Positions 29,113 through 58,887 of a stretch of DNA of 64,000 nt are shown one piece after another. Location of the stretch: assembly GCA_029945375.1 (NCBI GenBank), contig CM057063.1:2849894-2913893 (forward strand), given 5' to 3'. The position numbers and the translations under genes were made by a program. Every line of letters starts with the position of its first letter. Position 1 is the first letter of the stretch. Origin of the DNA: Agaricus subrufescens (lineage: Eukaryota; Basidiomycota; Agaricomycetes; Agaricales; Agaricaceae). The notes below the pieces were generated by a model, which was not told where the DNA came from, searched no databases, and saw only the letters and a list, made by a program, of their open reading frames with translations.

Positions 29113-30327
29113 ATGGACAACACTACAGTAACACCACTCGAAGGGTACATACTCGAGGTTAATCAACTCGACCTTCTCAGCTCCACCACTGTAGCGGGCG
29201 CCTTCTACGGCCTTGCGTTCGCCCTCTTCTGCCTATATGTTCCTGCAGTACTTCGTCAAATCCGAATGGGAGAGAGAAAAAGACAAGCCAAGTTCATGCT
29301 TGCTTACACTATCGTCATAATGGTCTGTGGAACGTACTATCTAGTAGCAAGTGCCTGGGTTGCCCAAGATACATACATCAAGCACAGTGACTACCCCGAC
29401 AGTCCATTTGATTACGTTACATCAATTTATCCCACTAGTCCTGTGATATGGATTGCGCTGGCTTGTGAGCTGGCGATTGATGTTATGACGTTGTCAATAC
29501 AGGTGCGTTCTTACCATCTCTATATCTATTCTCCAACCCGACTAAATCTGTGTAAAGATTTGGCGGTTATGGGTCATCTTGGGTGCTACTCAGTTTCTAC
29601 GCTGGGTGGCTGTGATTCCCCTACTGTCTTTATTGACTTTCGTTGGTGAGTATGTCCCGACATACTTTTTCCTTCTATGATATAGATTATTTCCATCCAG
29701 CATTACAGTTGAGAACTGATATACTTTACACAACACTGGGACCCTCTGTGGCGCTTGACCAACTCGACGGAAAAATAGAGATAACGGAATCTGCCCTTAA
29801 AGGAGTCACTACCATACTCTGTACTCTGTTCATATGCGGCTACCTCATAGTCATGCAGTGGAAACAAAGGAAATTAATCGGTACGGAATCATCAATCATA
29901 CAAGCAGTGAATATGGTCTAACGCCACGAATCGGCAGGGAAAGCTCAAGGGTCTACGGGATACATGAACGTAGTAGCCATCATCATCGAGTCGTATGCCC
30001 TGGAATCCATGTGGATACTCTCTTACGCAATATTTTGGCAACTAAGTGTATACGTTCTCTTTGCCGACACCTCATTTATTGTTGAGGTAAGTTCACTTTA
30101 AACTCAGTACCAATGTTAAGCCTTAAACATATATCCAGATAGTCTCTTACCTCCTCGTGCAATACAGAGTCGCCAGAGGAATAGCATACCAATCAGAATT
30201 CGGACAAAGTGATCGGATTAGTTCCTTGCATTGGAACCATTCAGTTCGCGCTACGACGCAGTTTGGTGGAACTGACGAAATTCGCAGTGTTCCCCGTGTT
30301 CCAGCTGCCCCAGAGGCAATGGCCTAA
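29113..30327 (+). CDS. Orphan seven-TM family member A
   Basis: Five exons (29113-29502, 29558-29645, 29701-29880, 29938-30086, 30139-30327) join to 331 residues. Seven hydrophobic segments are visible: TM1 around VAGAFYGLAFALFCLYVPAV, TM2 after the basic loop ERKRQAKF, TM3 ending at the first intron, TM4 in exon 2, TM5 GVTTILCTLFICGYLIVM, TM6 VVAIIIESYALESMW, TM7 spanning the last intron. The short tail has RISSLHWNHS and ends in Met-Ala. The family is seen here many times but I cannot name it; it resembles fungal receptor-like membrane proteins in topology only. A is the first array member, next to Lon, and the most divergent in TM1 (VPAV for the usual VHAL). Confidence 0.85.
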
Positions 30328-31471
30328 TAACGCTTATTTATCTTGCTACGATGATTTTATTTACGAGTATATCATACCTTTCAACGAAGGGCTGAATAAC
30401 GTTGAAATTCCTTTCTCTCACTTACGTCGTCGAGTACCCATGGTTGGTATCCCCAACATAATTCCAAACCTCTGGATTCTCCATCCGGTAACATGTGTTG
30501 GTGCCGTGGACGTTTGGAACCTCTTGCACCAAGCGCGCGGTCGTACGAACAACTAAGTAAGAGCGTCCTCCTATGAGCTCGGGTAGCACTACACCCGTCC
30601 CTCTCCGAGCCCCGTTTGTGCAACAGTAATCAGCATCGTAGTAATTCCTGCCCCTTTCCGAACTTCGTCTCCGATAATCTTGCCTGGGGATGAGATTCTC
30701 CGCCGCCGAAATCATAACCATCATCGTCACCCTTGACAGCCTTTTCTCGAAATCTTTCGGTATGTGTGGGCGGACACTCTAAACATGTCATTTGACATTC
30801 TACTGATGTACACCTGATCTTTAGGGTTGGGTGGCCACGGTTGCTAGTCCCTCTTTCGTTCAGGATGGTCCACGACAAACGACTGTCAGATATGTGCAAC
30901 ATTTAGATATCACGGTAGTGCTGTGCCACTACAACCAGGTAACTGATGTGCCACAAACCGGGCAGGGGTAACATGTTAGTTTGACAGTGAATATGACAAC
31001 ATCGATCCGTGCGCGACTTGATACCTAGATGTCCGCCGTGTAAGCGAATCTTATATGGAAGACAACCAGATCGCGTCGTTGGGGAATCACATAAAGATTA
31101 CCGTGGTAAGCACATATTCACATATTTGCCCCCCCGCATTCTTGCTGCATAACCAAGACAGACAGATCAAGGGTAGATGTGGGTATTCCTCTATGATACG
31201 AAGTATCTCAGGAAGGGATTTTAGACGGTGTATTTCCACGCTAAGCGAAAGCCTGGTAACGATTTGTTACTATGAATCCAGCACGTCGTTGATGGGATGA
31301 GTTTGTTGAGACTCGGAGTGACCTTGTTCGGTGTGGCCCGAGTGTAAAATAAGGAACAGGAGATCGTTCGAGAGATATCTTACGGTCCCGATGTGCACCG
31401 TTTTCAGAAACGTATATATACCGATGAGGAAGGTGAAAAACATTACAGTCACATCTGCCCCTCGTACTTGT
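30328..31471. other. Intergenic between A and B
   Basis: No gene supported; short overlapping minus-strand frames at 30381-30902 have no recognisable content. Confidence 0.5.
31402..31420 (+). promoter_or_regulatory. TATA-type promoter motif of gene B
   Basis: TTTCAGAAACGTATATATA, 52 bp before the ATG; nearly identical to the motif of gene C. Confidence 0.7.
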
Positions 31472-32722
31472 ATGGACAACAGTACCGCACTACCCCTAGA
31501 AGGGGATGAGCTCCTCTACGATCAGCTGGCACTGATCAGCCCGACAACTGTCGCTGGCGCCTTCTTTGGCGTGGCATTCTCCCTCTTCTGCCTCTATGTC
31601 CACGCACTAGCTCCCCAACTCCGAGACGGGGACAAAAAAAGACAAGCTAGATTTATGCTCGGCTACAGTACTATCGTAATGTTTTGTGGGCTGTACAACC
31701 TGGCGGCAAACGCGTGGGTTATCCAAAATGCCTACACAGAACATGCCGACTATCCTGGGGGCCCACAATCATATATCGATGAGTCAATGCTTACTACCGA
31801 TCGTTTGGTTGCTGCTCGTGTGGTTGCTATTAGCTTCGCCTGTGAGTTGATAATTGATATCTTCACAATGGCAATTCAGGTGCGGCGTTACTTTTATTGA
31901 ATCCATCCTACAAATATTGAACACTTGGCAAGATATGGCGTGTATGGGTTGTCTGGGGTACCACTGGGCATGCCCGCTTTGTTGTCGTTCTGCCCCTAGT
32001 GCTATGTTTCTTGACTTTGGCGAGTTAGTGATCCCTTTTGAACTTCTCACTCACATACTAAGTTGCCTCTAGCGTTAGAGACCAGGTCTATTATTCTGAA
32101 TTTTACACTACCGTCAACAGAGATTCTCCAAGTAGACGGTAAAACACAAATAGCAGAGCTGGCAATTCAAGGAGTGATAACAATACTATGCACTATATTA
32201 ATATCGCTCTATCTTGTTTTCCACCAGTGGCAACAAAGAAAGCTCATTGGTACGCAATTTTCTCACAAGTTTGGAAACGACTACCACTAAAATCTTGACA
32301 GGGAGAACTGAAGGATCTACCGGATACATGTATATCGTCGCTATGCTCGTCGAATCATATGCTCTGGAATCTCTTTGGCTGATTGTGACCGCAGCAATTT
32401 GGGGTTTGAGTACATCAGCCTTCTTTGCTGAGACGATACCATATATTGAGGTAATTTCACGATGCAGGCAGTAACGACGCTGACTGTTGAGTACCCTGTC
32501 TAGATAATCGCCTACCTCCTTGTGCAGTATCGAGTTGCTTGGGGAAAGTCGTATGAGTCTCAAAGAGGGCCGACGGCTATAAGTTCCTTGCGTTGGAATA
32601 ATGTGACAAATCACGCTACAACCCAGCTTACAGAACATGATGCAGTTAACGCTGAACACCCAAGTCATGCGACTGCAATACCGAGAGCGTCAAGAAGTTC
32701 AAGCGTTTCTAATATGGCCTAA
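31472..32722 (+). CDS. Orphan seven-TM family member B
   Basis: Five exons (31472-31879, 31933-32023, 32073-32249, 32302-32450, 32504-32722) join to 347 residues with no stop. Exon 2 is 91 nt, one codon longer than in the other members. Its donor is GTTAGT, a non-consensus but valid site, chosen because it keeps the family phase. Motifs match the other members: DKKRQARFML in the first loop, WVIQNAYTEHADYPGGP between TM2 and TM3, EGSTGYMYIVAMLVESYALE at TM6, AYLLVQYRVAWGKSYES at the end of TM7, and the tail motif ISSLRWN with terminal VSNMA. The tail is longer than usual. The first ATG in frame (31331) lies upstream of the TATA motif, so 31472 is used. Confidence 0.85.
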
Positions 32723-34388: not shown

Positions 34389-35609
34389 ATGAGTGACGGC
34401 ACCACATCACTAGAAGGTGAAGCACTGCTCGTCACCCAGCTCGAGCTTGTTACACCAACATCTGTGGCTGGCACCTTCTATGGCATCGCGTTTACACTCT
34501 TCTGCCTATATGTTCATGCTCTCGCTCCTCGGCTTCGGAGCGGTGACAGAAAGAGACAAGCTATGTTTATGCTTGTGTGCAGTACTATCATAATGATTTG
34601 TGGGCTATACTATCTCGTCGCAAACGCTTGGGTCACCCAAAACGCCTACATCAAGCATAGCGATTATCCAGGTGGTCCATTCGTATATGTAGAATTAAGC
34701 TATCTTGCTACCCCTGTGATACTCGCCGGTCTTGTCTGTCAAGTGACAGTCGATATTTTGACAGCTGCAATTCAGGTGCGTTATAATCTCTCTCGCACGT
34801 ATCCCACAATATGACTAAACTCACATAAGGTTTGGCGTGTGTGGGTTATTTGGAGTGCCACTCAATATGCCATCTTTGCCACTGTGTTGCCCGCCCTGTG
34901 TGGTTTAACTTTCGCAGGTAAACAACTCCAATAGATACCTTCCACAGATGAAATGACTCATATCTGTCAGGACTAAGGCTAAGGACTGTAGTACTCGATT
35001 CTACGCTAAGCTTTGAAGAATTAGTTCAGGTGGACACTATCACACAAAAAGCGGAAAGTACTATTCAGGGAGTGACGACAATACTCTGCACTGTGTTGAT
35101 ATCGCTATATCTCATTTTCAAACAATGGCAACAAAGAAAGTTAATCGGTATGGAAAAGATACAAATTTGTGAATACAGCTAATATTGAAATATTTGTAGG
35201 GAAAGATCAAGGGTCTACCGGATATGTGAATGTTGTCACTATGCTCGTCGAATCATATGCCATAGAATCTATATGGCAGCTGATTCTGGTAATAATTTGG
35301 GACCGAGCTGAATCCAGTTTCTTTGCAGAGTCTTCAGTCTACATCGAGGTAAGTTGACAATGACCTCAGTTTCTATGCTAAACCATAGAATGTGTCTAGA
35401 TAATTGCTTACTTCCTTGTGCAATACCGAGTTGCTCGAGGTAAAGCATATGAATCACAAAGGGAACAGAGAAAGATGAGCTCCTTGCATTGGAATCGGTC
35501 GAATCATGCCACAACGCAGTTTACAGAAGCTGGTGAAATTCAAGCCAGTCATCGTGTATCTGTCGTACCAGAAGCACCTTATGCTCCACGAGTTTCTAGC
35601 CAGGCCTAG
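34389..35609 (+). CDS. Orphan seven-TM family member C
   Basis: Five exons (34389-34775, 34830-34917, 34971-35147, 35200-35348, 35400-35609) join to 336 residues. Close to the family consensus: LVTPTSVAGTFYGIAFTLF in TM1, DRKRQAMFML in the first loop, NAWVTQNAYIKHSDYPGGP, GSTGYVNVVTMLVESYAIES in TM6, QYRVARGKAYESQ after TM7, tail KMSSLHWNRSNHATTQ and terminal VSSQA. The start at 34389 is chosen over 34296 because the promoter motif lies between them. Intact. Confidence 0.9.
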
Positions 35610-36683: not shown

Positions 36684-37912
36684 ATGAGTAACAGTACTGG
36701 TACACCCCTATGGGGTGAAGAACTCCTATATACTCAACTCGAACTTATCACTCTCACAACCATCGCTGGCACCCTATATGGCATTGCATTCACCCTCTTC
36801 TGTCTCTATGTTCATGCACTCGCTCCCAGACTACGAAATGAAGACACAAAAAGACAAGCAAAACTCATGCTTGTGTCCAGCATTGCCATAATGTTCTGTG
36901 GGCTATACTATCTCATGTCGAACGCTTGGATCACTCAGGACGCCTACATCAAAGGAAATAGCTATATCGAGAGTCCATTTTCATATGAACTACCAAGGCA
37001 TACCGCTCCAGTGGTTTATGTTGGACTTGCCTGTCAGGTGACAGTCGATGCCCTGACACTAGCTATTGAGGTAGGTAATCATTCGTTTCGCATCTATCCA
37101 ACGATCTAGCTGATTTCAGAACAAGGTGTGGCGCGTGTGGGTCATTTGGAGTCGCACTGAGTATGCTCATTTTGTCGTGATCCTGCCTATATTGTGCTTC
37201 TTGACTTTCACAGGTATTTGATCTACGACAAATCTAATCCTATTCTCTCTTTAACATGATATATTTCCCAGGTTTAAAGTTAAGAGGTGTCGTACTTGAA
37301 ATTACGCTACCTCCTGCGAAACTTCATCAGCTGGATTATAAACTCAATATAGTGGCCCATGCGGTCCAAGGAACCACGACAATACTATGCACTCTGTTGA
37401 TTTCTGGATATCTTATTTTCAAGCATCGACTACACAGAAAATTAATTAGTATGGAAACAATGCACAAATTTGGCAAATACAACTAACATACAAACTCGCT
37501 AGCTCCAAGTCAAGGATTCAAGGGATACACGAATATTGTGGTTATAATGATCGAGTCATACGCTCTTGAATCAATATGGCTGCTGACTGAGGGAATAATT
37601 ATGGATAAACCTGGAGGAAACTTCTTTTGCGAGTCTCTAACCTACATTGAGGTGAGTTTGGCACGAATTCAGTATTAGTACGTGATCTTGAAATTGGTCC
37701 AGATCATCGCCTATCTGCTCGTCCAGTACCGGGTCGCGCGTGGTAGCACATTTGAGCCCCAAAGTGAAGATGGTCATTTAAGTTGCTTGCGTTGGAAACG
37801 TTCCAACCAAGCCTCAATGGAGCTTGCAGAAACTAGTGAAACTCAGTGCTGTCCTCACGAATGCGGTATATCAAAATTACCAGACACTCCAAGTGTCTCC
37901 CATATGGCCTAG
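36684..37912 (+). CDS. Orphan seven-TM family member D
   Basis: Five exons (36684-37070, 37126-37213, 37272-37448, 37503-37651, 37703-37912) join to 336 residues. TM1 reads TIAGTLYGIAFTLFCLYVHA and the first loop DTKRQAKLML. The loop between TM2 and TM3 keeps NAWITQDAYIK but loses the SDYPGGP motif, and the TM6 entry is PSQGFKGYTNIV instead of QGSTGY. The tail motif is altered to LSCLRWKRSNQ and it ends VSHMA. The last base of exon 3 is A where the other members have G, still before a GT donor. D therefore looks faster-evolving but intact. It is convergent with the Sec14-like gene at 38568. Confidence 0.85.
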
Positions 37913-38567: not shown

Positions 38568-39782
38568 TCACTCCCTTTTATAATCCCATTCCTTGATCCC
38601 AACACACCCACCCAACTCCTTCCACTTTTTCATCCACCTCTTCGTCCTGTCCTCCCCTATCTCAACAAGCGCCTTATGAAATTTCTCGTGCACATATTCG
38701 ACATCCTGTTCCCCACCCCACGACTCCTTGATCAACCTCTCCTTCGGAACCAAATTATCCTGAATAACGTTCGGATTAAATTTCACCTTTTCTCTTGTTA
38801 CTGGATCGACGAATGGCATTATCATTTTGAAAAACATGTTGAGGATAAAAGGAACATTGATCATTAAGGCTACGCCCATTCGCTCTGGATAATGATCTTG
38901 AAGTATACTGAGGACGGTGCGGGATAGCGAGAATGATGGATTTTTGCTCTTTGAAGCATAATCAGTCATGATAGCGAGAGTCCTTAAGGAGTGCTCAATG
39001 ATAAAATGATCATAAGGAGGAAGACTGGACACACTCTACACCGGGAGGCATCATCTCAATGCAGCGTTCCAATGTCCAGACGGTGTGATGGATTTGTCTA
39101 GGTCCTTCTTCGGTATTTTGACGACTGGGTATCATGTAATAACAGGGACGGCCTTTGATATCGTTCCCGAAAATGATTGATTTTCCCGTTTCGCCCTATG
39201 ATCAGCAAGAATGTTGGTATGCGATGGTGAGCTTCTATCGGAGTGAGAACCCTTTGGTGCTCACTTCGATAGAAATATAATCACTAGTGATCAAATCATA
39301 AATGCCATATTCTCTTCTCCATTTAAGAGTGTTCTCGAGCCTCTGAATAGCGTCTTGTGTTTTCCACTTGGATGCTCTCAAGTAGCTAACGAAAAGGCTG
39401 CGTTGAGGATAAGTGCTCCCTCGAGTGCGGCCAGGAAAGCTCACCGCAACATACATTCATACGACAGCCAAAACTTTTCTTTGTCGATAAGTTCGCCTGA
39501 CCACGTTCTCCTCTCCCCCTTGAGTTGTTCCTTCTTGCTCAACTCCTCCAGTCTTTCTTTGAAATTTTCCACGTCTCCGAATCCGGGGAGTCTGTACTCT
39601 GACTTGCTGAAATGAGAAAATACCGCATCATATTTTTCTTGTTCGGTTTCTGTTAGTTTTTGTATTGGATCCTCCGAATAAAGGTTGTCGGGGGGTGGAA
39701 GAGGAAGGTAGACCTTGTCATCGTTGGGTGACTCCGTAGTCGGTGACTGGGAGTGGGCGGGAGAATTGGATGTGGTGGGCAT
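38568..39782 (-). CDS. CRAL-TRIO (Sec14-like) lipid-transfer protein, copy a
   Basis: Phosphatidylinositol/phosphatidylcholine-type transfer protein of the Sec14 family, cytosolic and membrane-associated. Four exons (39782-39445, 39385-39265, 39195-39035, 38982-38568) join to 344 residues. The order is a Pro-rich N-terminus, a CRAL-TRIO N domain (FWLSYECMLR, YLRASKWKTQDAI, ENTLKWRREYG) and the lipid-binding domain (GRPCYYMIPSRQN, HYPERMGVALMINVPFI, FVDPVTREKVKFN). It ends in a Lys/Trp-rich stretch with IKEWDYKRE. Exons 2, 3 and 4 have the same lengths (121, 161, 415 nt) as the copy at 50748-51988. Intact. Confidence 0.9.
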
Positions 39783-40580
39783 GACTGCTGATAGATACAG
39801 GGATGCTGGCGAAGAATAAGGTAAAGACGTCTCGCGTGAAATAGAAATCTACGTGGTTGTGTCAAAGCCGGAAATCACGGGTCACTAGGCAGGAGGATCG
39901 GGAACGAACTAGGGTGCTAATATAACTCCTGACTAGCCCCTAAACCAGTTCCTGCTATCAGATCGTTAGTGAGACTCCTCGTTGCTACAGTACCTTATTC
40001 GGGCCAATCCTTGTCTAAACCCCTCTCTCATGTGCCTTACAGAGTATGAGCTATCAGGATTCAGGGGGTATAGGTTTCGAAGAGGCGACGTCGTAATGGT
40101 TTGAAAATGCCGGTGGAAATACACCTTTGCATGCCGGAATAGACGCCGACATGGCTTTGTAGAGCGTCAGAGCTGGTGAAAAGCTTGCATCATAAGCTGA
40201 CCTCTCTGCACCGATGCGGGAAACATGTCGAGCACCGAAACCTCAGCTAGTCCCAACTTTGGAGTGGGACAACCCCGCGAGTAACGCAAATACGCTCGAC
40301 AGACCCAGAGAATCCGGCTCTATAAAATTTTTGAACTTGAGTCGCTATAGATTCGCGCCCTGTGACCAGGGCCAGTGCTCGCGGCTCCGCGTGCCGAGTG
40401 CTCTCGTCGCGGGAAAGGCTGGTACGAGCGATTACTCTGTCTGACTGACAAGTGTTGACTGACGTCAATGTCCAAGACAGCATAAGTGTGTGGAGGGACA
40501 GCTGGATGTTGGAGAGGTTGTGGGGAGGATAATGCACCGTGGGAATCTCAGCTCATTTATAGATACGGTACACATGTACA
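39783..40580. other. Intergenic
   Basis: About 800 bp between the starts and ends of two minus-strand genes. No gene supported. Confidence 0.5.
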
Positions 40581-41818
40581 CTAAGCCATACTAGAAACTC
40601 GTGCTTCATTAGATGCCTCTGGTAGGGGAGAGGCATAATGACTATCTTGAGTATCTCCCCCAAACTGCGTTCCGGCATGATTAGAATGATTCCAACGCAA
40701 AGAACTCATATTCCTCCGACTAGCTGCCGGTTCCCTTTTTGATTCGTACGATTTACCACGGGCAACTCGGCATAGCACGAGAAGATAGGCAATGATCTAG
40801 ACACGTTTTTGAGTTATTGTGGATACTGACATCGCCGTAAACTTACCTCGATATAGGTAGCAGTCTCTCCAAAGAAGTTGTTCACACCAGTATCCCAAAT
40901 TATGATAATAATCATCAACCAAATGGATTCAATGAGGTATGACTCGACAATCATAGCCACAACACTCATGTATCCGGTAGCTCCTTGGCTTCTACCTATC
41001 AAGTTTCTCGTATTAGTTTATTCTCAGTCACGTGAATTCTTACATGCCAATTAATTTTCTTTGCTCCCATTGCTTGAAAATAAGATATGCAGATATCAAC
41101 ACCGTAGATAGTAATGTCGTCGCCCCTTGAATGATAGTTTCTGCCTTGCTTGTTATAGCGTCCAGTGCGGCGACTTCTGCATGTGGTGCTGTAGAGTCAA
41201 GAATTATAGTCCTCAGCTTTAACCCTGACAGATATCGGTTATTTCTTGGGAGGGGAGAGTCATTCTGGTAACATACCGGTGAAAGTCAAAAGGCACAATA
41301 TCGGAAGCACGATGATAAGCTTCGCATATCGAGTAGCACTCCAAATGACCCATACACGCCAAATCTTGCTCGAAAATTAGTCATCTGGTAAAATTGGCAC
41401 GAGAGTAATGATAACTTACTTGAATTGACAATGTCAAAACATCGACTACCGTCTGGCAGGCGAGTCCAACAGCTATCACAGGGGTAACATGAACACCCGA
41501 GAATAATATGTAGGCATATGGACCCTGGGGAAAGTCGCTATGTTCGATGTAGGCATTTTGGGTAACCCAAGCATTTGCTATGAGGTTATACAGCCCACAA
41601 ATCATCACAATGCTACTATAAACCAGCATAAATCTGGCTTGTCTTGTTCTCTCCCCTCCCCGTAGCCGAGGAGCAAGTGCGTGAGCATATAGGCAAAAAA
41701 GTGTGAATGCAATGCCGTAGAAAGTACCAGCGACGGTTGTAGGAGTGACAAGTTCAAGTTGAGTGATCAGAAGGAGATACCCTGTTAGCGGTGGTCGTGG
41801 AGAAGTACCGTTATCCAT
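40581..41818 (-). CDS. Orphan seven-TM family member E
   Basis: Five exons (41818-41420, 41364-41277, 41224-41048, 40995-40847, 40796-40581) join to 342 residues. Exon phases are kept only if intron 3 uses a GC donor (GCATGT) with a normal AG acceptor, giving a GC-AG intron where the other members have GT. Motifs: TVAGTFYGIAFTLFCLYAHA in TM1, ERTRQARFML in the first loop, ANAWVTQNAYIEHSDFPQGP, QGATGYMSVVAMIVESYLIE in TM6, tail MSSLRWNHSNHAGTQ and terminal VSSMA. After TM7 it has VLCRVARGKSY with Cys for Tyr. The start at 41818 is chosen because the TATA motif lies between it and the upstream ATG. Intact. Confidence 0.85.
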
Positions 41819-41860
41819 AGAGCTGAAGAATAAGTTGTCGTTCAATATTCCCCTTGACCA

Positions 41861-41879: not shown

Positions 41880-44590
41880 AAAGCCAAGGGTGACAGTTTG
41901 TGCGTATGTATCCGTGTATCCCTGTCTTTGATATACATCTATCAATCAAGTTGGAAAAATCCAGCTGCTATCGACTGCATCTTCCATTTTCTTGGCTTGA
42001 TGAGTTAAGATTCAGCGACTGGTGCACGCCGAGTACTATCGAGAACACAGAAAACGTCACTCGAGTTCCGAGATCTCGATACATGTAAGGTGACCCTTCC
42101 TGCACCATATGACTGACTTGAGAGCGCTGGCGAAGCTGAGGAGATCATCGCGTGATCATCGTGGCTTCCTCATTTCCATTTCAGAATTTCTCTCTAGATA
42201 GCCATTCTAACGCCTTTGACTCATTCTATTACTTTACGAATAACAATTATTCTAATTCTGGCAGTGCATGCTTTGACAGCAAAGGAAGAAGAGGAACGAT
42301 GATGGAGATGATGATCTGTTCTGAAACTGCTATTTTTAGCCCGAGATAATGAGTGGAGAAATATACGATTGTCCCATGAGGCACTTGAGATACGTGACGA
42401 AGTACACGCATTAGGGTGCTTACAGCACATGCGTAACGGGAAATGAAGGAAAATATATCAGCTCTGCTTTGAGTGTACAGACTGACCGCACTGTAAAATC
42501 CCCGGATAGATACATTTACAAACGTGAGAGGAATCACTAATTTGACAGGAACCGAGGGAACGGAGGGCGTTACAATGTAAGCCTCGCTTACACCTTCATA
42601 TTATAGAATGGAGAAACTACCGTATATAAGGAGACGAACAAGATGTTTCATTACCTTTTTCCTTTACTCTTGAATATACACCCTTTGTCTGTCGTATTCC
42701 CTTCGCTCCCCTTCTTCTCTCGTCTCCCAAAAACTCCTCTTGATCCGTTTACCCAGTGAGGCCGCCATCGTTCCTGGCGTCCTTTCACACAATCAGCTTT
42801 GAGTCGTTCCGATCTCAAGTCAATTGATTGACGCCACATCATACATTGGCATGCCTGACAAAACAACACCCACTCATGGAAATCACAAGCGGTTCTGGAC
42901 CGGTGAGACTTACTAGTCACTAAACTTTAATCTGTCACTCCCACAACTGTCTCTGAAAGTCTACAGGATCACATTTACAATCTTTTATCAGTATGTTCAT
43001 ATGCTTTGACTCCGAAATGGAGACAGAACGGAACAATCAACATCAGGGAAGATAGTAAACCTATGACCGATTCGGATCAAGGAAACCAGCTACTACTAAC
43101 CCAGTTTTAGAGCTGTTTTTTGATGTGATGCTCTTAATGTTTAATGTTATGTATGCTTCAACTGCGAGAGCGACTCTATCACGGAGTCTTGAAGCCTATG
43201 AAACAATTATCTTGTGTCATTCCTGCAAAAATCAACACCTTTCTCGTACGACAGCTGAGGTAGAGAACGATTGTTGAAAGACTAGCAGGTAACATACTGG
43301 ATATTTGACTTGAAAGGGAAATAACAGGGGTAAATTGGACAGCCCGACAGGCACCGGTGGAGGCGTCGGAGAACTCCGATGGTGAGCAGCGATTTTGATT
43401 TCTTTCGGGGCCGGGCTACTTAACATTGCCATAAGATATCTCATCATGCGCAAGCAAGTAATCCTCTCCGGCCCAGTCTTCGAAACATTAAAGTGCTTGG
43501 TATTTTGCTTTCCTACCCTAGAAACATTTCACTCGGCTGTCACGTAATGTCTGACCGGGCTTTGTCGCCCTGTGCATGCGCCCTACGTGTTTTACATACA
43601 CGCTCCATCCTGGACTTTAGTCTAAAACTGAATAGGCTGCAAGTATCAATCTGTCACTCCGCTGTCGCAGACTGCTAGGGATTTTCCACCTGTCAAGGAA
43701 AGATATGATGTTTCAAGGAAGACGTAGAGCTGCAGATGTGACCTTAGTTGATTGGTCTAATGTCTGGAGAGTTTTTTTGCTCAATCTTTGTGTCAAAATT
43801 GTGGGATCGCTGATCCTAACTTAGAAAGTTGTACCTCATGTATAACTATTCTAACCCTTTTGATTAACTTCAAAGTACTATGAATAACATGATTATTTTG
43901 GTAGCGAGTGGATGGGCGGCAAAGGCACGACAGCAATGATGATGTGGATGATGTCGGACCTCTCGATAAAACTATATATACAACTCCGAGGACAATCAGA
44001 GGATAGATAGTAGACGATATTCTGCAGTGCCCCTCCGTATAAAATGCAGTATTGTATACACATACGGACGGGGGAAGCGTTCACATGATGATAAAAGTTC
44101 ACTAATATACACCCAGAATTGGCTTTACTTTGGAACTCACAAAATTCCGCTACTTGTATTCAGACTCATGAGATTCAGGTCCCAGACGATCTGTCTCCAT
44201 CCCTCTGATCGCGGATGGTACAGGGGAAAAGATGATCTTTGTTGACATGACGTGGGGATTCAGCTGATTAGCGGTGATTAGTATTGATAAGTGGACTTTG
44301 TTCTCGACTGGTCAGCTAAGAAGCACAGAAACCGTTGGAACACTCTCAGAGACTCTGTTTACAAATGCTGGTGGTAATAGTCTTGCAGGGGAACTGTATT
44401 AATAGGGTTTCGTATATATACGAAATGTGTTTTTTTTTTTTGGAATATAGATGACAGAAACAAAGAGAACGAGAGATGCCACCGATATACGCTTCGTTTT
44501 CTTAAGTCCGTCAACAGACGTCACAGCATGCACCATGTGTTATAATTGTCATGTAAAGCCATGATTCTAGTGGGACCTATATACAAAGAT
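41880..44590. other. Gene-poor stretch with one exon relic
   Basis: No intact gene. A relic of seven-TM exon 1 sits at 42925-43045 (separate entry). Several short frames, such as 42247-42537 on the minus strand, are hydrophobic but unassignable. A perfect 18 bp palindrome with a TATATA centre is at 44408-44425. Confidence 0.45.
42925..43045 (+). pseudogene. Relic of seven-TM exon 1
   Basis: Nucleotides from AATCTGTCACTCCCACAACT through TACAGGATCACATTTACAAT to GAAATGGAGACAGAACGGAA align base by base with the TM1 and first-loop part of exon 1 of the family (compare gene C 34445-34555). Several indels and substitutions make it untranslatable. No other exon is visible downstream. Confidence 0.65.
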
Positions 44591-44667
44591 CATGCATGAT
44601 AGATTACATGTATCGCCGCTCAGGGGCAAGCAGATCAAGCGCACTTCCGTGTTCCCGAAACAGTTCC

Positions 44668-44940
44668 GCCTCGTGACTAACCTCGAACTTGTCACACCCA
44701 CAACTGTCGAAGAAAACCTTGTGGGAGCGGAATCACCCTCGTCTGCTCACGCGCTCATGCCAGGTTCATGCACTCATAGAGTCTCAGCTCCAGAGGGCAG
44801 GAACCTAATAAGAGAGGCCCCGTTCATGGTGCCGCACATCCGTACTATCACTGGCATGATCCGCGGCCTGTGCTATTCCGTATTCAACGCTTGGGTTACA
44901 CAAAATACCTACATCAAGTTGCATGCCACGACACACTTCT
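44668..44940 (+). pseudogene. Relic of a seven-TM gene (F), exon 1 only
   Basis: The frame 44592-44942 keeps LVTNLELVTPTTV at the start and FNAWVTQNTYIK at the end, both family exon-1 motifs. TM1 itself is replaced by unrelated codons through compensating frame shifts. No later exons could be recognised to 45390. A degenerate paralogue lying between E and the eIF3j gene. Confidence 0.7.
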
Positions 44941-45394: not shown

Positions 45395-46343
45395 TTACAT
45401 AAAGTCGTTCGGATCGTTCCCAAAGTCGTCTAAGGCTTCGTCGTACATCGTCGTATCAAGCCTGTGTGAACAAATAAGATCGTATGACTGGTGACTCTGG
45501 AGGACAAACACCAACTTGTTCTGTATCTTGACATTGCCGAGAGCAGGTTTCGACGCTGCTTTAGACTTCTTTTTACCACTTGCTTTTTCCCTTTGTTCTT
45601 TTTGTTTTTCATTCGCCAATGTGGTTAGTCCAGAAGCAGCTTTGCGGACTTCGACGTCTTTGAGAGGAGCGGCGAGCTCGCGAACATGATGCTCTACGAA
45701 GAAGTGGTAAAGGGGCTTGTTCTGGTGTCGCCTAACGATGTATTCTATAATTTTGGATGAAAACTGTTCAAAGTCCTCCTTGGTGCGGGGTTGAAAGGAT
45801 ATGAGCTGATCAAGGTCCGATGACGATGTCCCTGAGATTCAGGGTCAGAAACGATCGTCTGTGAGCTCGAAACATACCGCCTAGTGCAGCCGCACCAAAA
45901 AGCTCGGCGGCATTGTTCATGTCAGCTTGCAATTGTCTTTCTTTATCCCTACGTGCTTTCTCTCGAGGATCAAGCACCTCGTCAGAATCATAGCCATCGT
46001 CTTCCTCTTCGGCAACCCTTCTTCGAGCCTTTTCGGCTTCTTTTTCGACTAGTTTTTGTTTCAGAGTGCCTTTCTTTTTCGGTGGCGCGACAGGTGCAGA
46101 GGCGGGCTTCTCTTCCTCCTCTTCAGATGACTCGTCCCAATCTGTCTGTAAATCGGGTCGATATCATGAAGAAAGGGTAGAGTTAACGGCATACAGCAGG
46201 ACCATCATCTTCTTCGTCTTCGCCTTCCCATTTTGATTTCTTAGGCTGGACTGCCGGCTTCACTGGTGGCTTTGAATCGCTGTCTGATTGTGGGTGAGTT
46301 TGCGGAATGGCGGGGACGACGCGAGCGCACCCCAATCGGACAT
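45395..46343 (-). CDS. HCR1: Translation initiation factor eIF3 subunit J
   Basis: eIF3j binds the 40S decoding centre and eIF3 during initiation and helps ribosome recycling. Five exons (46343-46331, 46283-46195, 46145-45878, 45831-45516, 45461-45395) join to 250 residues. The first exon is only 13 nt and encodes MSDW plus one base. Family features are the acidic N-terminus (WEGEDEEDDGPA, DWDESSEEEEE), the basic KKKGTLKQKLVEKE stretch, a central helical domain with FEQFSSKIIEYIVRRHQNK, a Lys-rich end and an acidic C-terminal tail EALDDFGNDPNDFM. Length is normal for fungi. The last intron uses a GTTGGT donor. A single-copy housekeeping gene lying inside the seven-TM array. Confidence 0.9.
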
Positions 46344-47192: not shown

Positions 47193-48434
47193 ATGGACAA
47201 GAGGACCACACCACCACTACAGGGACATAATCTCCTTACCACTCAGCTTGAACTTGTCTGCCCTACAACCGTCGCTGGAGTCTTTTACGGCATTGCTCTC
47301 ACACTCTTCTCCCTATATGTTCATGCGCTCGCTCCTCGATTCCGGAATGGAGATCGAAAAAGACAAGCCATCTTCATGCTAGCTTACAGTACGGTCATAA
47401 TGGCGTGTGGGCTGTACTATCTCGTATCGAATGCTTGGGTTACCCAAGATGCCTACATCAAGCATAGCGACTATCCTCGCGGTCCATATGGATATATACT
47501 GTCGACCTTTCTTACCTCTCCTGTGATACCTATTGGTCTCACCTGTCAGATGTTGATCGAGGTCTTGACATTAGCAATTCAGGTACCCATTTTTTCTTAT
47601 ATATAACCTACAAGTCAACTGAGTTATAATCAAGATCTGGCGTGTATGGGTTATCTGGAGAGCGACTCGGTATGCTGTTCCAATCACAATGGTCCCTGCA
47701 CTATGTTTCCTAACTTTCACGGGTACTTGATTTCTGACAAACTTCCTTCAATCAAAAAAATAACGCTTACTTTCCAGGATTAAAGTTGAGAACACTGATA
47801 CTTAGTATCACGTTATCCAATGCAGAGATTGTTCCAGTGGACCGCGTTCCAGAACAAGTGAAAACTGCGATTCAAGGAACTACCACCGTACTATGTACGT
47901 TGTTGATATCCTTATATCTCATTTTCAAGCAATGGCGGCAAAGAAAGTTAATTGGTATGGAGACTATGCAAAATTAATCGTGAAATGAACTAAGATCAAT
48001 AATGGGCAGGGAAAAATCAAGGAGCTAGTATCGGATATGCCAATATTGTGGCAATGATTGTCGAGTCATACGCCGTGGAATCTGTATGGCAGTTGACTTT
48101 CGTAATAATTTGGCATCAGGCTGCATCATCTTTCTTTGAGGAAACTCTCCCATACATCGAGGTAAGCTCCTAATGGCGTCAACACCAACGATGAATCACA
48201 GAATACCTCCAGATGATCGCCTACCTTCTCCTGCAATACCGAGTTGCCCGCGGTAAAGCATATGACTCGGAACCACAAAGAGAGCCTCGGAATATTAGTT
48301 CCTTGCGTTGGAATCATTCCAATCACGCCACAGGCACAACACAATCTGAGGAAATTGGTGGAGTTCGAAACAGTCCCCATGTTCCCGCTATTCCAGCAGA
48401 CTCGAACACTGCACGAGTTACCAGTATGGCGTAG
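47193..48434 (+). CDS. Orphan seven-TM family member G
   Basis: Five exons (47193-47582, 47635-47722, 47778-47954, 48010-48161, 48213-48434) join to 342 residues. Motifs: TVAGVFYGIALTLFSLYVHA in TM1, DRKRQAIFML, NAWVTQDAYIKHSDYPRGP, TTVLCTLLISLYLIFKQW in TM5, AMIVESYAVESVW in TM6, QYRVARGKAYDSE after TM7, tail NISSLRWNHSNHAT and terminal VTSMA. Exon 4 is one codon longer than usual (QGASIGY for QGSTGY). Its upstream neighbour eIF3j is divergent. Intact. Confidence 0.9.
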
Positions 48435-48562
48435 TGTATTGTGGCTGTACCGTATCATGAAGTTGAATACGAAGTGATCTATACACAGGAGTAGTTCTAA
48501 AAATACGTGGGCTGGTATTGACTCCAATCAAGTAGTTCTGGCTCGACCGCTAATCAATCTAT

Positions 48563-50330: not shown

Positions 50331-50747
50331 AAATAGCTTACAAATGCGGTATCGATCATACTAGAAGTTCACATACTACCCCTGGATTCTATCCCTGGGA
50401 GATTACTGTGCTTAGTCGGCGCCCTCTTAATTCGATGTTAGTATCCTCGAACATGTATGTGGCTACCGGATATATCGACAGTCTTTTTTTGCCTCTCCAA
50501 CCGCTTACTAGCCGTCGAGCGTAATCATAGTTTCATCTGTGTTCGCAGACCGGACATCTTGTCTGTCGAGGATCTCACTGGCAAGATTCTCTAATCTGAG
50601 GATGGGAAACGCTTTTAGGAGCCATCACTGCATCATCAATCAAAACGACCCGCGACACCCAGCATTGACACAAACCAACAATGTCAACTTTTGATCTTAC
50701 GGAACGCGTCCGCACGCTGTTCTCGTTTCCCATCCTCGTGTCGACTA

Positions 50748-51988
50748 ATGGCCATATTCACCGCGCTCAACTCTTCCTCCCCCTCTGAGCCACCTACGAC
50801 TGACTTGCCTGATGTCGGCAACAAAGTCTACCTTCCCCTCTCGCCCCCCGACGGCATTTACTCGGAAGATCCACAAAAAAAACTTACCGAAACCGAACAA
50901 GAAAAATATGATGTGGTGTGTTCTCACTTCAGCAATTCGGAGTACAAGCTTCCTGGATTCGAAGACACAGAGAGTATCAGAGAAAAGTTGGAGGAGCTTA
51001 AGAAGAAGGAGGGATTGGAAGGCGAGAGGAGACAGTGGACAACTGAACTTATTGATGAAGAAAAGTTCTGGTTGTCGTACGAGTGTATGTTGCGGTGAGT
51101 GTTCTCCATTCTATTTCGGGAGCTGCCTACCCTGAGCACGTGTTTATTCAAGGTATTTGAGAGCATCTAAATGGAATACACCAGTCGCTATTGAGAGGCT
51201 AGAGAACACTCTCAAATGGCGAAGAGAATATGGCATTTACGATTTGATCACCAATGAATATATTTCCATCGAAGTAAGTGTGCTACACCATGAAAGAAGC
51301 GTAGCGCTGGCTCTAACAAATTTGACCACTGCGCACCTCCACTTTTATTGATCATAGGGCGAAACCGGAAAAGCTATAATATTTGGACATGATACCCATG
51401 GCCGTCCTTGCTTTTACATGATACCTAGTCGTCAAAATACGGAAGAAGGGCCAAGGCAAGTCCAATGGACTGTTTGGTTATTGGAACGTTGTGTTGAGAT
51501 GATGCCTCCTGGTGTCGAGTACGTCAACCCCTCCATCTTGTTCATGATGTATCAGTCATAAACGATCAAAAAGGAATCTCGCAATTATGCTTAATTTTGC
51601 TTCAAAAGCCAAAAACCCCTCATTTTCGTTATCGCGCACCGTCCTCAATATACTTCAAGACCATTATCCGGAACGTATGGGTGTGGCATTAATAATCAAC
51701 GTTCCTTTTCTCGTCAACGCGTTTTTCAAAATGATATTGCCATTCGTTGATCCAGTGACAAGAGCAAAGGTGAAATTCAACCCGAGCGTTATTCAAGATA
51801 ATCTCGTGCCAAAGGAAAGGTTGATCAACGAATGGTGGGGTGGGGACCAGAATTTAGAGTATGTGCATGAGAAATTCTTCAAGGCACTTATTGAGATGGG
51901 AGAAGAGAGGATGAAGAAGTGGATGAGCAAGTGGAAGGAGTTGGGTGGGTGTGTTGGGATTAAAGAGTGGGACTACAAGAGGGAGTAA
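50748..51988 (+). CDS. CRAL-TRIO (Sec14-like) lipid-transfer protein, copy b
   Basis: Paralogue of the gene at 38568-39782. Four exons (50748-51094, 51153-51273, 51358-51518, 51574-51988) join to 347 residues; an upstream ATG at 50691 would add 19. Conserved: VYLPLSPPDGIYSEDPQKK near the start, FWLSYECMLR, ENTLKWRREYGIYDLIT, GRPCFYMIPSRQNTEEGPR, NILQDHYPERMGVALIINVP, FNPSVIQDNLVPKERLI, and the terminal GGCVGIKEWDYKRE shared with copy a. Exons 2-4 have the same lengths as copy a, so the pair arose by duplication with introns. Convergent with seven-TM gene H. Intact. Confidence 0.9.
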
Positions 51989-53917: not shown

Positions 53918-55159
53918 TTAAACCATATTAGAAACTCGCTGAGTATCTAGTGCTTCAGGCACCATGACAGACACACAGGGACCTCCGCGACTTTCGCCAG
54001 GTCCCTCAAGCTGTGTCGTACACACATGATTCGATTTCCACTGCAAGGAACTAATGCTACTTTGCCCGCTTCTCGATTCAAATGCTGTTCCACTGGCAAC
54101 TCGATACTGCACGAGGAGGTAAGCAATTACCTATCCATGTTTCAACATCTAGCACTGGTACCGCGACTTCATTGCGAGCACTCACCTCGATGTAGAGTAC
54201 AGACTCAAGAAAGAAAATTTCTATTGCAGGATTCGGAACCCACAATATAGCCAAAATCAGTAGCCATAAAGATTCCACTGCATAAGACTCGATAATCATG
54301 GCTACAATGTTCAGGTATCCAATAGATCCTTGAGTTTTCCCTGTCATGTATTTTTTTGCATAAGTTGTGTTTGCCAACTGAAATCACTCTCTTACCAAGC
54401 AATTTGTTGTGTTGTTGTTGCTTGAAAATTAGATATAAGGATATTGACAGAGTGCACAGTAGCGTCGTAGCTGCTTGAGTTACAAATTCTACCACTCCCG
54501 TTTTCGAATCCATTTGAGCTGCTTCAGCAATTGATATTGTAGCTATATGCACCAGCGTCCTCAGCCTTAATGCTAGAGTGGTATGAATTCTTTTGTAGAA
54601 GCGAGCAGTGTATCGGAGGCCACTAACCTATAAGAGTCAACGAACACAATACGGGCAACACAATGACGAAATTGGCATATCTACTGCCACTCCAAATAAC
54701 CCGTACACGCCAGATCTTACTCACAATTCAGCCACTGCGGCAAATCGATAAAGGAAAACCAAGAAAAACCTGAACTGCTGATGTCAAGAGGTCGATTATT
54801 GTCTGACTTGAGAAAGTAACAATCATCGCAGGCATCATTTGAGTGGATAAAGTATATGACGCGGGACCTCCTGGATAATCGCAATGATTGATGTAGACAT
54901 CTTGGGTGACCCAGGTGTTTGATACCAGAAAACACAGCGTACTGAGCATGATTATGATGCTGTAGCCCAACATAAACCTTGATTGCCTTTTTCTGTCACC
55001 ATCACGAAGTCGAGGAGCCAATGAAAGAACATATAGACAAAAGAGAGTGAACGCGATGCCGTAGAGGATACCAGCTACAGTTGTGGGGGAGATAAGTTGA
55101 ATTTGAGTAACAAGCAGTAGCTTCCCCTGTAGTGGTATAGCACGCGCACTTATTGACAT
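53918..55159 (-). CDS. Orphan seven-TM family member H
   Basis: Five exons (55159-54770, 54715-54628, 54572-54396, 54340-54186, 54130-53918) join to 340 residues. An in-frame ATG nine bases upstream (55168) is possible, but the TATA motif at 55194-55204 favours the downstream one. Exon 4 is two codons longer than usual. Motifs: TVAGILYGIAFTLFCLYVLS, DRKRQSRFML, NTWVTQDVYINHCDYPGGP, TTLLCTLSISLYLIFKQ, GSIGYLNIVAMIIESYAVES, QYRVASGTAFES, tail ISSLQWKSNH and terminal VSNMV. Intron 2 uses a GTTAGT donor, as in B. Divergent in TM2 (LSTLCFLVS for CGLYYLVS) but intact. Confidence 0.85.
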
Positions 55160-55193
55160 GTCAGGCAAAGGTCAAAGAATCGTGCAAAGTATC

Positions 55194-55204
55194 GGTTTAT
55201 ATAC
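55194..55204 (-). promoter_or_regulatory. TATA box of gene H
   Basis: GAGTATATAAACC on the minus strand, about 35 bp before the preferred ATG; the TTTCARA part of the motif is absent. Confidence 0.45.
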
Positions 55205-56079
55205 TCCAGAATGACTTGTTTTGCGCTCATCACTGGATCACTGGGTAGAGTCTTCTACTCCCAGTCTCACTGAAGCCGAGTGTCTCCACAGCCTTATGGA
55301 AGCTGAGATGATGAACAAATCTCACGGTAATGAATAGTGGTCTTTCACCTATCCTTGTTCTAAAATATTCCTGATGTTAGCTTGTATGATATTCTTGCAT
55401 TAGAACTTGATTGCAAATGAGTACTCAAATGCAAACCGGTAGAATCGAAGTCAAGTTCGTTTACGTCAGGTGGGCAAGTTGTACTGCCAAAAACAAAAAT
55501 CTCATTGCGTTATTTTCGGCTTCTGTTTTGTTTCTCTCACAACTATGAATTATGACTCGGACATTCAATTCCATTTGACTTCCACTGATATGAACATTGG
55601 CCTAAGTACATGACTCGACTTGCTCGAATTTATTTGACTCAACTCGTGGAACTACATCTCGTATGACATAAAGAGCCTTTGTGATTCTCTCTGCAGTCCA
55701 AGCCGCGATTTGTATCTACTCGAAGAAGACCCACTGAGAAAGTTTGTGGAGCGTTCCCTCCGGACCAACCTGGGAACACCCACCGGGATTATCCGTTGAG
55801 GACCCTGAGCATCGTGTCGGAACCTTCCACATAAGTGGATTAAAATGTGATTCTAATATCAAAAATACCTCATTAGAATGCTCAAACGGGAAAGTATTCC
55901 CTCTGAACACAATTTGAAAGGTTCCTACATAATTATCGTGGGACATTTCTAAAAACAAGAACCTGCCACCGCTACCACCGACCTGTGTGGGATATTAGCT
56001 TCGCGTAGACTCATGTGTCACTGTAGATCACACGAAAGTCCTTTTCTTTTTCTTTTTTGTGCCAGGACAAATTCGACAG
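55205..56079. other. Intergenic
   Basis: No gene supported between the divergent gene H and fragment I'. Confidence 0.5.
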
Positions 56080-56494
56080 GGGAAAGCCAAAGATCTACTG
56101 GCTATGTCGGTGTTGTAGCTATGATTGTCGAATCATATGCTTAGGAATCTATATGGCTGCTAGCGATCGTAATACTTTGGAAGTATCCTGAAGGAGGGTT
56201 GATCTCAGAGGGTGCAACCTACATTGAGGTAAGTTGATGATGATGTCAGTATCAACCGTAAATTCTAAAAAAAAAAATGATTAGATAATTGCATACCTCC
56301 TCGTTCAGTATCGAGTTGCCCGTGGTAAAGCTTATGACGCACGAAGGGGGCAGCGGAATATTAGCACATTGCGTTGGAACCATTCAAATCACAATACTGC
56401 ACAGTCTGGGGCAATTGATACTGGCCTGCGCAACCCCCATTTATCCGTCTTACCAGAAGCGTCGAACGATTTGCGAGATACCAGTATGGCTTAG
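56080..56494 (+). pseudogene. 3' fragment of a seven-TM gene (I')
   Basis: Only exons 4 (56080-56228, 149 nt) and 5 (56285-56494, 210 nt) are present, with a normal intron between them. The sequence is close to gene I: STGYVGVVAMIVESYA in TM6, then a TAG stop at 56142-56144 where the others have Leu (LES motif), tail NISTLRWNHSNHNT and the same Ser-Met-Ala end. The downstream sequence (GTAGAATGTTATGTCATTGA) is shared with gene I, so I' is a truncated duplicate of the I 3' end. Confidence 0.85.
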
Positions 56495-57230
56495 CGAGCG
56501 TAGAATGTTATGTCATTGATCTATATATGTATATATATGCGCGTGATTTGAGGGTTACAGAAAAGTTTCTTTTCATTTTCATTTCTTAATGGAGCCTTGA
56601 CGGTATCAAACGTTTGACGGCAGGACCCATATATGGGTCAGATTATTCTATCAGTGATAACAGCATGGCACAGTAGGGAGAGTCTATGAGATGGGAACCA
56701 AAGACGAATTACATAGATTGACATCGTTTGTGCAATCCTGTGCAGCTGGGTAACAAACGTAGTAACGAAAACAATTGTATAATACATACCAATGGATCGT
56801 AGACATGCTATATTCATGGTTCTTGTAAAAAATGATGCACGGCATAAAAGATAAAAATTCCTTTGGTGTTGGTATGTCGTTTGATGAGGCACTCTGACTA
56901 AAGGTCAATTTCGTTCTGCGTACAGCCAGCCAAGGTATAAAACATCTATGGTAACATGTTTGAGGGCTGTGTTGGTGATGCTGTGGTAACAACATTCCAG
57001 AGGAATTGTACTATCAAGTGTTGGATATTAGCAACACCGTAGGCGGAAACATGATCATCAACATAGCCCACCAAGCAGGAGGCTCAGTTAATAATAAATC
57101 TGTTTTCTTGACCCCGTTGTAAGGAGACGTTGCGTGTCGTTGACAACTCTCATCTGTCAATGGACGACGTTGCATCATGATTGTGATACCTATTAACCGC
57201 GAACTTACAAAAATGCTATGCTTGATGTAG
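56495..57230. other. Intergenic between I' and I
   Basis: No gene supported; minus-strand frames at 56638-57316 lack recognisable motifs. Confidence 0.5.
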
Positions 57231-57246
57231 TTTTCAAAGATATATA
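57231..57246 (+). promoter_or_regulatory. TATA-type promoter motif of gene I
   Basis: TTTTCAAAGATATATA, 47 bp before the ATG. Confidence 0.65.
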
Positions 57247-57293
57247 CTCTAAGGCCATGGGCAAAACCAATCTCAACACATCCTCCTTTCCGA

Positions 57294-58887
57294 ATGTCTA
57301 TGGATAATAGTGCCACAACACCATTAGTTGGGGATCCACTGCTTGTTACTCAATTCGAGCTTGTCAGCCCTACAACCGTTGCTGGTACTCTCTATGGCAT
57401 TGCGTTCACCCTTTTCTGTCTATATATTCATGCGTCTACTCTTCGACTTCGAGAGAGTGACAGAAAAGGACAAACCAAGTTTATGCTTGCATATAGTTCC
57501 GTTATTATGCTTTGTGGGTTATACTCGCTAGTGTCCAATGCCTGGGTTACGCAAGATGCCTATATTAAACATAGCAACTATCCCGGGGTCCATTTCTATA
57601 TGTGCAATCAACTTTTCGTACTACCCCCGTAATCTCTACAACTATTGCCTGTCAAACAGTAATAGACATTTTGACGTTAGCAATTCAGGTGCGTTAGTAA
57701 CCCCCTCAGCTGGCTCAAATACCAGCAAGATTTGGCGGTTGTGGGTCGTTTGGGTTGCCACTCGATATGCAAAATTCGTCATCATGCCGCCTTCCCTGTG
57801 TTTTCTAGTTTACACTGGTAACCAACTCCTAATAGACTCCTCAGTCTAAAAGAACTGATATCTTTCAGGATTAATACTGAGGACCATAATACTTGAATCT
57901 ACATTGCCCTTTTGGGAAGATATCTTACTGGAGATCACAACCACAAAAGTAGAGTTTGCAATTCAGGCAGCCACGACAATGTTATGTACGGTGTTAATAT
58001 CGTTATATCTCATTTTCAAACAACGGCAACAACGAAGATTAATTGGTATGTAATCTTTACGGATAGATTAAATGGACTTCTCCTCAGGGCGCCGGGTACG
58101 CGTCACCAATAACATAATAATCAATATGACTATGGCAGTGTGAGTGGGGGAGTGGAAGGCCTGGAGGGATAGTCGTCCCCAGGCCTCCAGGCGGTAAGAG
58201 TGAGGTTGGAACAGCATCGGGTCACCCGGATGTGTACAACCTACAACCTACCTGTGCCAATAGTCTTATCTAATGTATGGGATCGGGAGGGTGGCTTTAA
58301 GGAATCGCGAGCAGGTAGCGGTGCCGTCCACTCAGCACAGGGAGGAGAGACGAATGTGATATTATGCAATGTGAGGATCACTATACTACGAATCCATCAT
58401 TCACACGGGCTGCCCTTCCGAGACAACACACCGCGCTCATTCCTCGCACGGTGTTCCATAATCGAAAACTTTGACAGGGGAGAGTCAAGGATCTACTTGG
58501 TACGTAATTATCGTAGCTATGATTGCTGAATCGTATGCTTTGGAGTCTATATGGCTGCTAGTGGTTGTAATACTTTCGAAATATCCTGAAGGCGCGTTCT
58601 TCGGAGAGTGTGCACCCTACATTGAGGTAAGTTGACGTTGATGTCAGTATCAACTGTGAATGATGAAAAATGTCCAGATAATTGCATATCTCCTCGTTCA
58701 GTATCGGGTTGCCCGTGGTAAAGCATGTTACTCACATATGGAGCAGCGGAATATTAGTTCGTTGCGTTGGAACCATTCAAACCACGACACTACACTGTCC
58801 GGGGCAATTGATAGCAGCATGCGCATTCCTCAGGTGTCCGTCTTACCAGAAGCGCCTGACCATTTGCGAGGTTCCAGTATGGCTTAG
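57294..58887 (+). pseudogene. Orphan seven-TM family member I, single-base frameshift
   Basis: All five exons are present (57294-57688, 57730-57817, 57869-58045, 58478-58626, 58678-58887). Exon 1 is 395 nt instead of a multiple of three. The frame breaks in the run CCCGGGG at 57593-57599, where the family has Tyr-Pro-Gly-Gly-Pro and one G is missing; beyond it the +1 frame reads TTPVISTTIACQTVIDILTL as expected. The rest is open: QGSTWYVIIVAMIAESYALE, tail NISSLRWNHSNHDT, terminal Ser-Ser-Met-Ala. Intron 3 is 432 bp instead of about 55, with an insertion. Either a very young pseudogene or a homopolymer sequencing error. Confidence 0.85.
58060..58465. other. Insertion in intron 3 of gene I
   Basis: About 375 bp of extra sequence that is GC-richer than the rest of the intron. 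It includes a hairpin GGCCTGG ... CCAGGCC (58169-58196) and no coding potential. No terminal inverted repeat or target duplication could be identified. The intron ends (GTATGT, TTGACAG) are intact, so splicing may still work. Confidence 0.5.

Follow-up and report, generated by a model that had tools for sequence, protein, structure and literature searches.

An expanded array of seven-helix genes in Agaricus subrufescens encodes candidate receptors with a predicted Ste2-like fold

A window of 64,000 nucleotides from the mushroom Agaricus subrufescens (C7:2849894-2913893 of a 44.65-Mb genome in 44 contigs) contains an array of genes that encode seven-helix membrane proteins. A first-pass annotation made from the sequence had described these as an unnamed seven-transmembrane family with intact, fragmentary, and relic members, and spliced gene models together with a tblastn catalogue of exons confirm this description. 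The array is real and larger than first noted, and the genes are best read as encoding a family of orphan receptors that share a Ste2-like fold. The predicted shape resembles Ste2 and the outward side of the protein evolves faster than the inner core; therefore the proteins are probably receptors for outside signals, and we consider it likely that the array genes encode receptors of the G protein-coupled receptor (GPCR) fold.

Seven genes, lying in both orientations, each have a complete open five-exon model of 331-347 amino acids, in agreement with the original count of intact members. In positions of the window these are:

Gene A: 29113-30327, + strand, complete five-exon model, 331 amino acids (exons 29113-29502, 29558-29645, 29701-29880, 29938-30086, 30139-30327)
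Gene B: 31472-32722, + strand, complete five-exon model, 347 amino acids
Gene C: 34389-35609, + strand, complete five-exon model, 336 amino acids
Gene D: 36684-37912, + strand, complete five-exon model, 336 amino acids
Gene E: 40581-41818, - strand, complete five-exon model, 342 amino acids
Gene G: 47193-48434, + strand, complete five-exon model, 342 amino acids
Gene H: 53918-55159, - strand, complete five-exon model, 340 amino acids

The introns of these genes are 49-58 bases long at equivalent positions, and protein identity between pairs is 45-67%. The gene modeller permitted only GT-AG introns of 42-84 bases, so that GT at 220 of 220 introns holds by construction, and it may bypass a lesion through its choice of splice sites.

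The family was first described as having no named domain, and this held. None of the seven window proteins matched a Pfam family over the cut-off (listing limit E 10, although HMMER filters discard most matches above about 0.1). Searches with 26 A. bisporus members, three bridge proteins, and 71 relatives gave scattered weak matches only, with 25 of 38 weak families examined for the 71 relatives. We judged these matches (MARVEL, DUF4131, YxzE, Peptidase_M56, FtsK_4TM, and similar families, with E 0.0015 at best) to be due to chance. A first AlphaFold model based on 26 close sequences was mediocre (predicted local distance difference test score of 66.7), which an alignment of 122 rows remedied. 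In a structure search the predicted model matched GPCR folds, and Ste2 (PDB 7ad3, 7qa8) came first by Z in a ranking made with this family's model alone. The predicted model has the overall fold and helix arrangement of Ste2, with the N-terminus predicted to be outside.

Besides the overall fold, the likeness to Ste2 consists of a GxxxG motif in helix 1. Counted strictly and anywhere in positions 20-45, this motif is present in all 50 distinct A. subrufescens proteins and in 76 of 122 wider relatives, and 112 of the 122 have a small residue at each of positions 28 and 32. The motif takes the form G28-x-x-Y-G32, with tyrosine in 49 of the 50 proteins; the Ste2 motif is quoted as GVRCG in an excerpt of PMC9220813. 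The structurally aligned range begins at residue 1 of the model and residue 29 or 30 of Ste2. With the numbering that we assume for the Ste2 motif, the two helix-1 motifs would be at about the same place, provided that no gap intervenes. By contrast, the family has no sequence match to Ste2 and lacks its motifs in helices 6 and 7. The STE2 model had no match listed for any of the seven window proteins up to E 10, and a sequence search of PDB chains with gene C or a 71-row profile found none up to the same limit. Sections of PMC8942848 give LPLSSMWA of helix 7 and a conserved helix-6 proline as Ste2 motifs. LPLSS was found in 0 of the 50 A. subrufescens proteins and 0 of 122 wider relatives, and the most frequent helix-6 proline was in 13 of 122. 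The family also has tens of copies, whereas Ste2 is single copy. According to PMC13308352 and PMC12842992, class I (Ste2) receptors occur in Ascomycota only. Because there is no Pfam, PDB, or motif match to Ste2, we word the conclusion from the model as a family that may work like a Ste2-type receptor, rather than one that is Ste2.

Variation across the protein is greatest on the outward side. Per-site entropy among the 50 proteins was 1.03 in the inner helix halves versus 1.44 in the outer halves (Mann-Whitney p 0.0007), with the minimum in inner helix 7 (0.68) and the maximum in extracellular loop 3 (2.81), followed by loop 2 (2.34). Helices 2 and 5 had little or no difference between halves, and helix 8 and the C-tail were variable as well (1.86 and 1.91). 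We calculated the ratio of nonsynonymous to synonymous substitution rates (dN/dS) by the Nei-Gojobori method, using helix-half borders that we set from the predicted model. Pooling of 18 disjoint pairs gave 0.62 for extracellular loops, 0.47 for outer helix halves, 0.27 for inner halves, 0.37 for intracellular loops with helix 8, and 0.47 for the C-tail. When the four most distant pairs were removed, the extracellular and cytoplasmic sides of the remaining 14 close pairs had dN/dS values of 0.52 and 0.31 (a difference this large arose in 0 of 1000 permutations), with 0.52 in the C-tail. Pairs containing the doubtful models C7_1997654, C6_1240563, C3_1695995, or C7_2959493 were also dropped, leaving 10 pairs with 0.51 versus 0.27 (1 of 2000) and nearly equal proportions of synonymous differences (pS) on both sides. 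The outer-over-inner gradient thus held in the 18-, 14-, and 10-pair sets. A recent clade of eight genes, within which pairs are not independent, had 0.80 extracellular versus 0.34 cytoplasmic (1 of 1000 permutations), with 1.02 in extracellular loops (site bootstrap 0.63-1.56) and 0.56 in the C-tail; without C7_2959493 the values were 0.76 versus 0.35 (2 of 2000), again with nearly equal pS. In no region was dN/dS significantly above 1.

This pattern of outer-side variation resembles that of chemoreceptor families. Insect and vertebrate chemoreceptors occur in arrays with birth-and-death evolution and have a variable outer side. The comparison is an analogy without shown homology, and one of the 71 relatives had a weak match to 7tm_7 (E 0.036). 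A role in sensing had been guessed at in the first-pass annotation, and the match to GPCR folds, the predicted topology, and the faster evolution of the extracellular side now back that guess.

For relatives outside this genome, a search with a single protein returned at least 50 matches, those listed being from A. bisporus or unnamed environmental proteins. Among the matches listed, the best full-length proteins had 58-59% identity across 95-100% of the query, and partial ones reached 67% across under half of it. Macrolepiota fuliginosa (E 3e-66), Rhodofomes roseus (E 4e-31), and Gelatoporia subvermispora (E 3e-17) were added by a profile search, and a profile from the proteins of these three species returned 153 proteins, the best 120 of which were examined. 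These 120 come from Agaricales, Boletales, Polyporales, Russulales, and Hymenochaetales, plus Exidia. Pfam annotation is empty for all 120; therefore, counts of fungal receptors based on domains would miss the family. A few relatives carry automatic UniRef names that begin with "G-protein coupled receptors" or "Taste receptor type 2".

Two residues, E235 and S236, never vary in the 122-row alignment, and conservation of at least 90% is seen there for Y31, G32, L37, Q84, P94-G95-G96-P97, R132, L206, G218, Y226, L273, R277, and G281. Poor conservation of the motifs in other mushrooms had been raised as a reason to doubt the family, and Y31, G32, Q84, PGGP, R132, E235-S236, R277, and G281 show the opposite. 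Because of this conservation the array motifs are the visible part of an Agaricomycete-wide family. The loop motifs first noted as shared are real, but some vary: at the PGGP positions the A. subrufescens proteins have P in 45, G in 36, G in 41, and P in 49 of 50. E235 is present in 50 of 50 and R277 in 48 of 50.

A careful tree of 98 proteins (50 from A. subrufescens, 24 from A. bisporus, 12 from Macrolepiota, and 12 wider, selected from matches sharing words) placed the seven window genes inside a 33-gene clade exclusive to A. subrufescens (bootstrap 85, Shimodaira-Hasegawa-like approximate likelihood ratio test (SH-aLRT) 83). In a quick first tree this clade had 36 rows (SH-aLRT 96). A. bisporus, whose rows are from several strains and may include alleles, had its own clade of 14 (bootstrap 100, SH-aLRT 97), and the 12 Macrolepiota proteins formed a single clade (100/89); missing members could split or join such species-specific clades. 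Several deeper forks were weak (bootstrap 34-58). The closest tree neighbours of gene A are on contigs C12 and C8 and that of gene H on C9. Thus, the array reflects local duplication together with dispersal, not a simple tandem series. A. bisporus relatives have neighbouring locus numbers (Agabi119p4_10384, 10385, 10386, 10388, 10389, 10398, 10399, 10400), which suggest that this species also has arrays. The birth-and-death evolution proposed at the outset is borne out by the catalogue, relics, and tree as lineage-specific birth with some death.

Within the A. subrufescens genome, the gene C query had 213 exon matches in all. An exon-1 query had 93 matches that by our count comprise 56 strong ones (E <= 4e-21; 55 modelled genes and the damaged gene I described below) and 37 weaker ones. 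Modelling covered 59 exon-1 rows, 55 of them with a complete model, giving 50 distinct proteins; the count of 55 may be high by a few, and some models may conceal damage. The four rows without a model are gene I, a relic at 44.6 kb of the window, and two pieces of a single relic at C7:2.598 Mb. The exon-1 query found an additional relic at C3:1745.5-1745.9 kb. The array extends past the window, with nine further complete models in the following ~62 kb, and the run holding the window genes comprises 16 complete models over 97 kb, up to C7:2976048. Further groups lie at C3:1.685-1.761 Mb (10), C10:646-683 kb (6), and C7:1.979-2.002 Mb (4), plus several pairs and singles. Among the doubtful models, C7_1997654 and its identical twin score 799 versus 1232 for the near-identical C10_665575, the two loci having 97.5% identical DNA over 2.4 kb. 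Lengths or introns are unusual in models C6_1240563, C3_1695995, C10_670341, and C7_2959493.

Some segments of 3.4-6.0 kb are 100% identical: C6:1236919-1242919 with C9:958000-964000 and, in opposite orientation, C7:1995729-1999145 with C7:3020738-3024154 and C7:2000885-2004259 with C7:3015624-3018998. These would be either very recent segmental duplications or duplications in the assembly. The weaker exon-1-like rows cluster at C1:5152-5209 kb, C2:145-197 kb, and C6:47-75 kb, and further at C1:1451-1469 kb with C2:770-789 kb and C6:2295-2306 kb. Such clusters are perhaps further subfamilies of the wider seven-helix family, and equal scores suggest that some rows are in duplicated segments, judged from the scores alone.

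Damaged copies in the window are:

Gene I, damaged copy: 57300-58884, + strand, all five exons present, frame change in exon 1, intron 3 enlarged
High-copy repeat of ~381 bases in intron 3 of gene I: 58079-58459, + strand
I', 3' fragment: 56079-56491, + strand, exons 4 and 5, in-frame stop inside exon 4
Exon-1 relic: 44598-44927, + strand, tblastn E 9e-10, 43% over 86 amino acids, no model
Doubtful second exon-1 relic: 42907-43039, + strand, tblastn E 0.002, 39% over 38 amino acids

Gene I had been called frameshifted and I' a 3' fragment, and both calls stand. The frame shift in exon 1 of gene I is near the YPG motif. Intron 3 (58048-58476, 429 bases) is ~375 bases longer than its equivalent in intact genes because it contains the ~381-base repeat. 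This repeat has 44 matches in the genome including the intron-3 copy, and one other copy is 100% identical over 381 bases; the insertion into gene I is therefore probably recent. I' is 80.5% identical to the 3' end of gene I over 486 bases, and the match starts within about 5 bases of the end of the repeat, at nearly the same breakpoint. Of two exon-1 relics originally reported, one is clear and the second is weak.

These results lead us to favour a plasma-membrane receptor whose N-terminus lies outside the cell and whose seven helices are followed by an eighth helix and a tail in the cytoplasm, with a further short helix in extracellular loop 1. The ligand, a small molecule or peptide particular to each copy, would be bound by the variable outer helix halves and the extracellular loops. 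A conserved cytoplasmic core would relay the signal to one of many G-alpha subunits; this core consists of R132 (foot of helix 3), E235-S236 (helix 6), and R277/G281 (end of helix 7). Because the nearest solved fold is Ste2, similar dimers are plausible, with contacts made by the small-xxx-G motif of helix 1, by loop 1, and by helix 7, regions where much of the family's conservation resides. The sequences show that the repertoire gains copies by duplication and dispersal and loses some by frameshift, repeat insertion, and truncation. More tentatively, the genes could belong to a large, mushroom-specific chemoreceptor superfamily with a Ste2-like (class D) fold, which spread over Agaricomycetes and gave rise separately, in different Agaricaceae, to tens of dimeric receptors that vary on their outer sides, akin to the multiplication of odorant receptors in animals.

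A GPCR-like bundle might also be found in seven-helix membrane proteins that are not receptors, such as transporters, channels, or lipid translocators. Known GPCR sequence motifs are absent, with class A DRY (helix 3) and NPxxY (helix 7) in 0 of the 50 A. subrufescens proteins and 0 of 122 wider relatives, there is no family match, and the portion of PMC10949477 on Snowball, another mushroom seven-helix protein, leaves transporter, channel, and receptor open. We regard this explanation as unlikely. Retinal-binding light sensors or pumps of the microbial rhodopsin type have almost no chance of being correct and were rejected because the Schiff-base lysine of helix 7 is missing, any lysine at 256-276 being present in only 5 of 122.

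Self/non-self recognition in mating or heterokaryon compatibility would suit clustered, diversifying genes with outer-side variation, and the structural neighbour Ste2 is a mating receptor. However, basidiomycete mating receptors are STE3-type in the sections of PMC13308352 cited here, the STE3 matches of this genome are elsewhere and have no sequence link to the array, 50 distinct proteins per genome exceed the need of a compatibility pair, and no observation favours this role over ordinary chemosensing; we therefore find it quite improbable. We give equally little credence to a decaying duplicate family of little function, in which the gradient is relaxed constraint. The relics, I, and I' fit with decay, as do two of the 40 closest pairs listed, with dN/dS of 0.81 and 1.02, but complete models exist for 55 of the 59 scored exon-1 rows, a count that may be slightly high as noted, and the inner helix halves keep a dN/dS of 0.24-0.33, including in recent pairs and clades.

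The receptor family favoured here differs from other seven-helix families of fungi. Liu, Salamov and Grigoriev 2025 (PMC12842992) suggest that DUF6534 proteins constitute a new class of GPCR; these are likewise mushroom-enriched, multigene, seven-helix proteins without a known ligand. This genome has 32 DUF6534 matches at other loci, whereas neither DUF6534 nor DUF6533 was listed for the seven window proteins (E 10) or among the 25 of 38 families examined for the 71 relatives. Parts of PMC12842992 note other large seven-helix clusters without Pfam domains, and the array family may be among them. Snowball/SNB1 (DUF6533) is also an Agaricomycete seven-helix protein with an extracellular N-terminus, but portions of PMC10949477 report four snb1 paralogues in Coprinopsis versus tens here, and the window proteins have no DUF6533 match. 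Pth11-like receptors form a large expanded fungal family as well, reported in Pezizomycotina only in the passages of PMC12842992 cited; the Pfam matches listed for the window proteins included no GPCR family. STE3 class II pheromone receptors are seven-helix fungal receptors encoded in the same genome, with matches at C7:2.29 Mb, C10:1.34 Mb, and C13. Thus, STE3-type receptors are located elsewhere than the array. Profile similarity to them is negligible (hhalign probability 0.1% against the exons for transmembrane helices 4-7 of two A. subrufescens STE3 genes, the STE3 profile having only two sequences), and no STE3 match was listed for the window proteins in the Pfam search. A PDB sequence search with an A. 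subrufescens STE3 exon found nothing.

The majority of fungal GPCRs are orphans, and Basidiomycota are described in PMC13308352 and PMC12842992 as lacking class I (Ste2) receptors. If the family is Ste2-like, class D architecture would reach beyond ascomycete mating, and mushrooms would have a large number of candidate receptors open to testing, be it for pheromones, for host or substrate compounds, or for fruiting cues. We found no prior description of the family as Ste2-like or as an Agaricaceae expansion in the open-access literature, subscription journals and preprints being mostly outside this coverage.

Possible signaling partners are present, since our grouping of 43 exon matches gives about 16 G-alpha-like loci in the genome, 15 with a match over the cut-off. 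The ordinary neighbours of the array in the window are:

Lon substrate-binding-domain protein: 26510-28087, - strand
eIF3 subunit: 45395-46163, - strand

Two CRAL-TRIO (Sec14-like) genes are located between receptor genes, at 38568-39848 (-) between D and E and at 50749-51988 (+) between G and H. They are an inverted pair with 76.5% identity over 1211 bases. The third close copy in the genome, at C7:2476638-2477089, is about 2.3 kb from a family member at C7:2.473 Mb, and the proximity of CRAL-TRIO genes to the receptor genes may be simple co-duplication.

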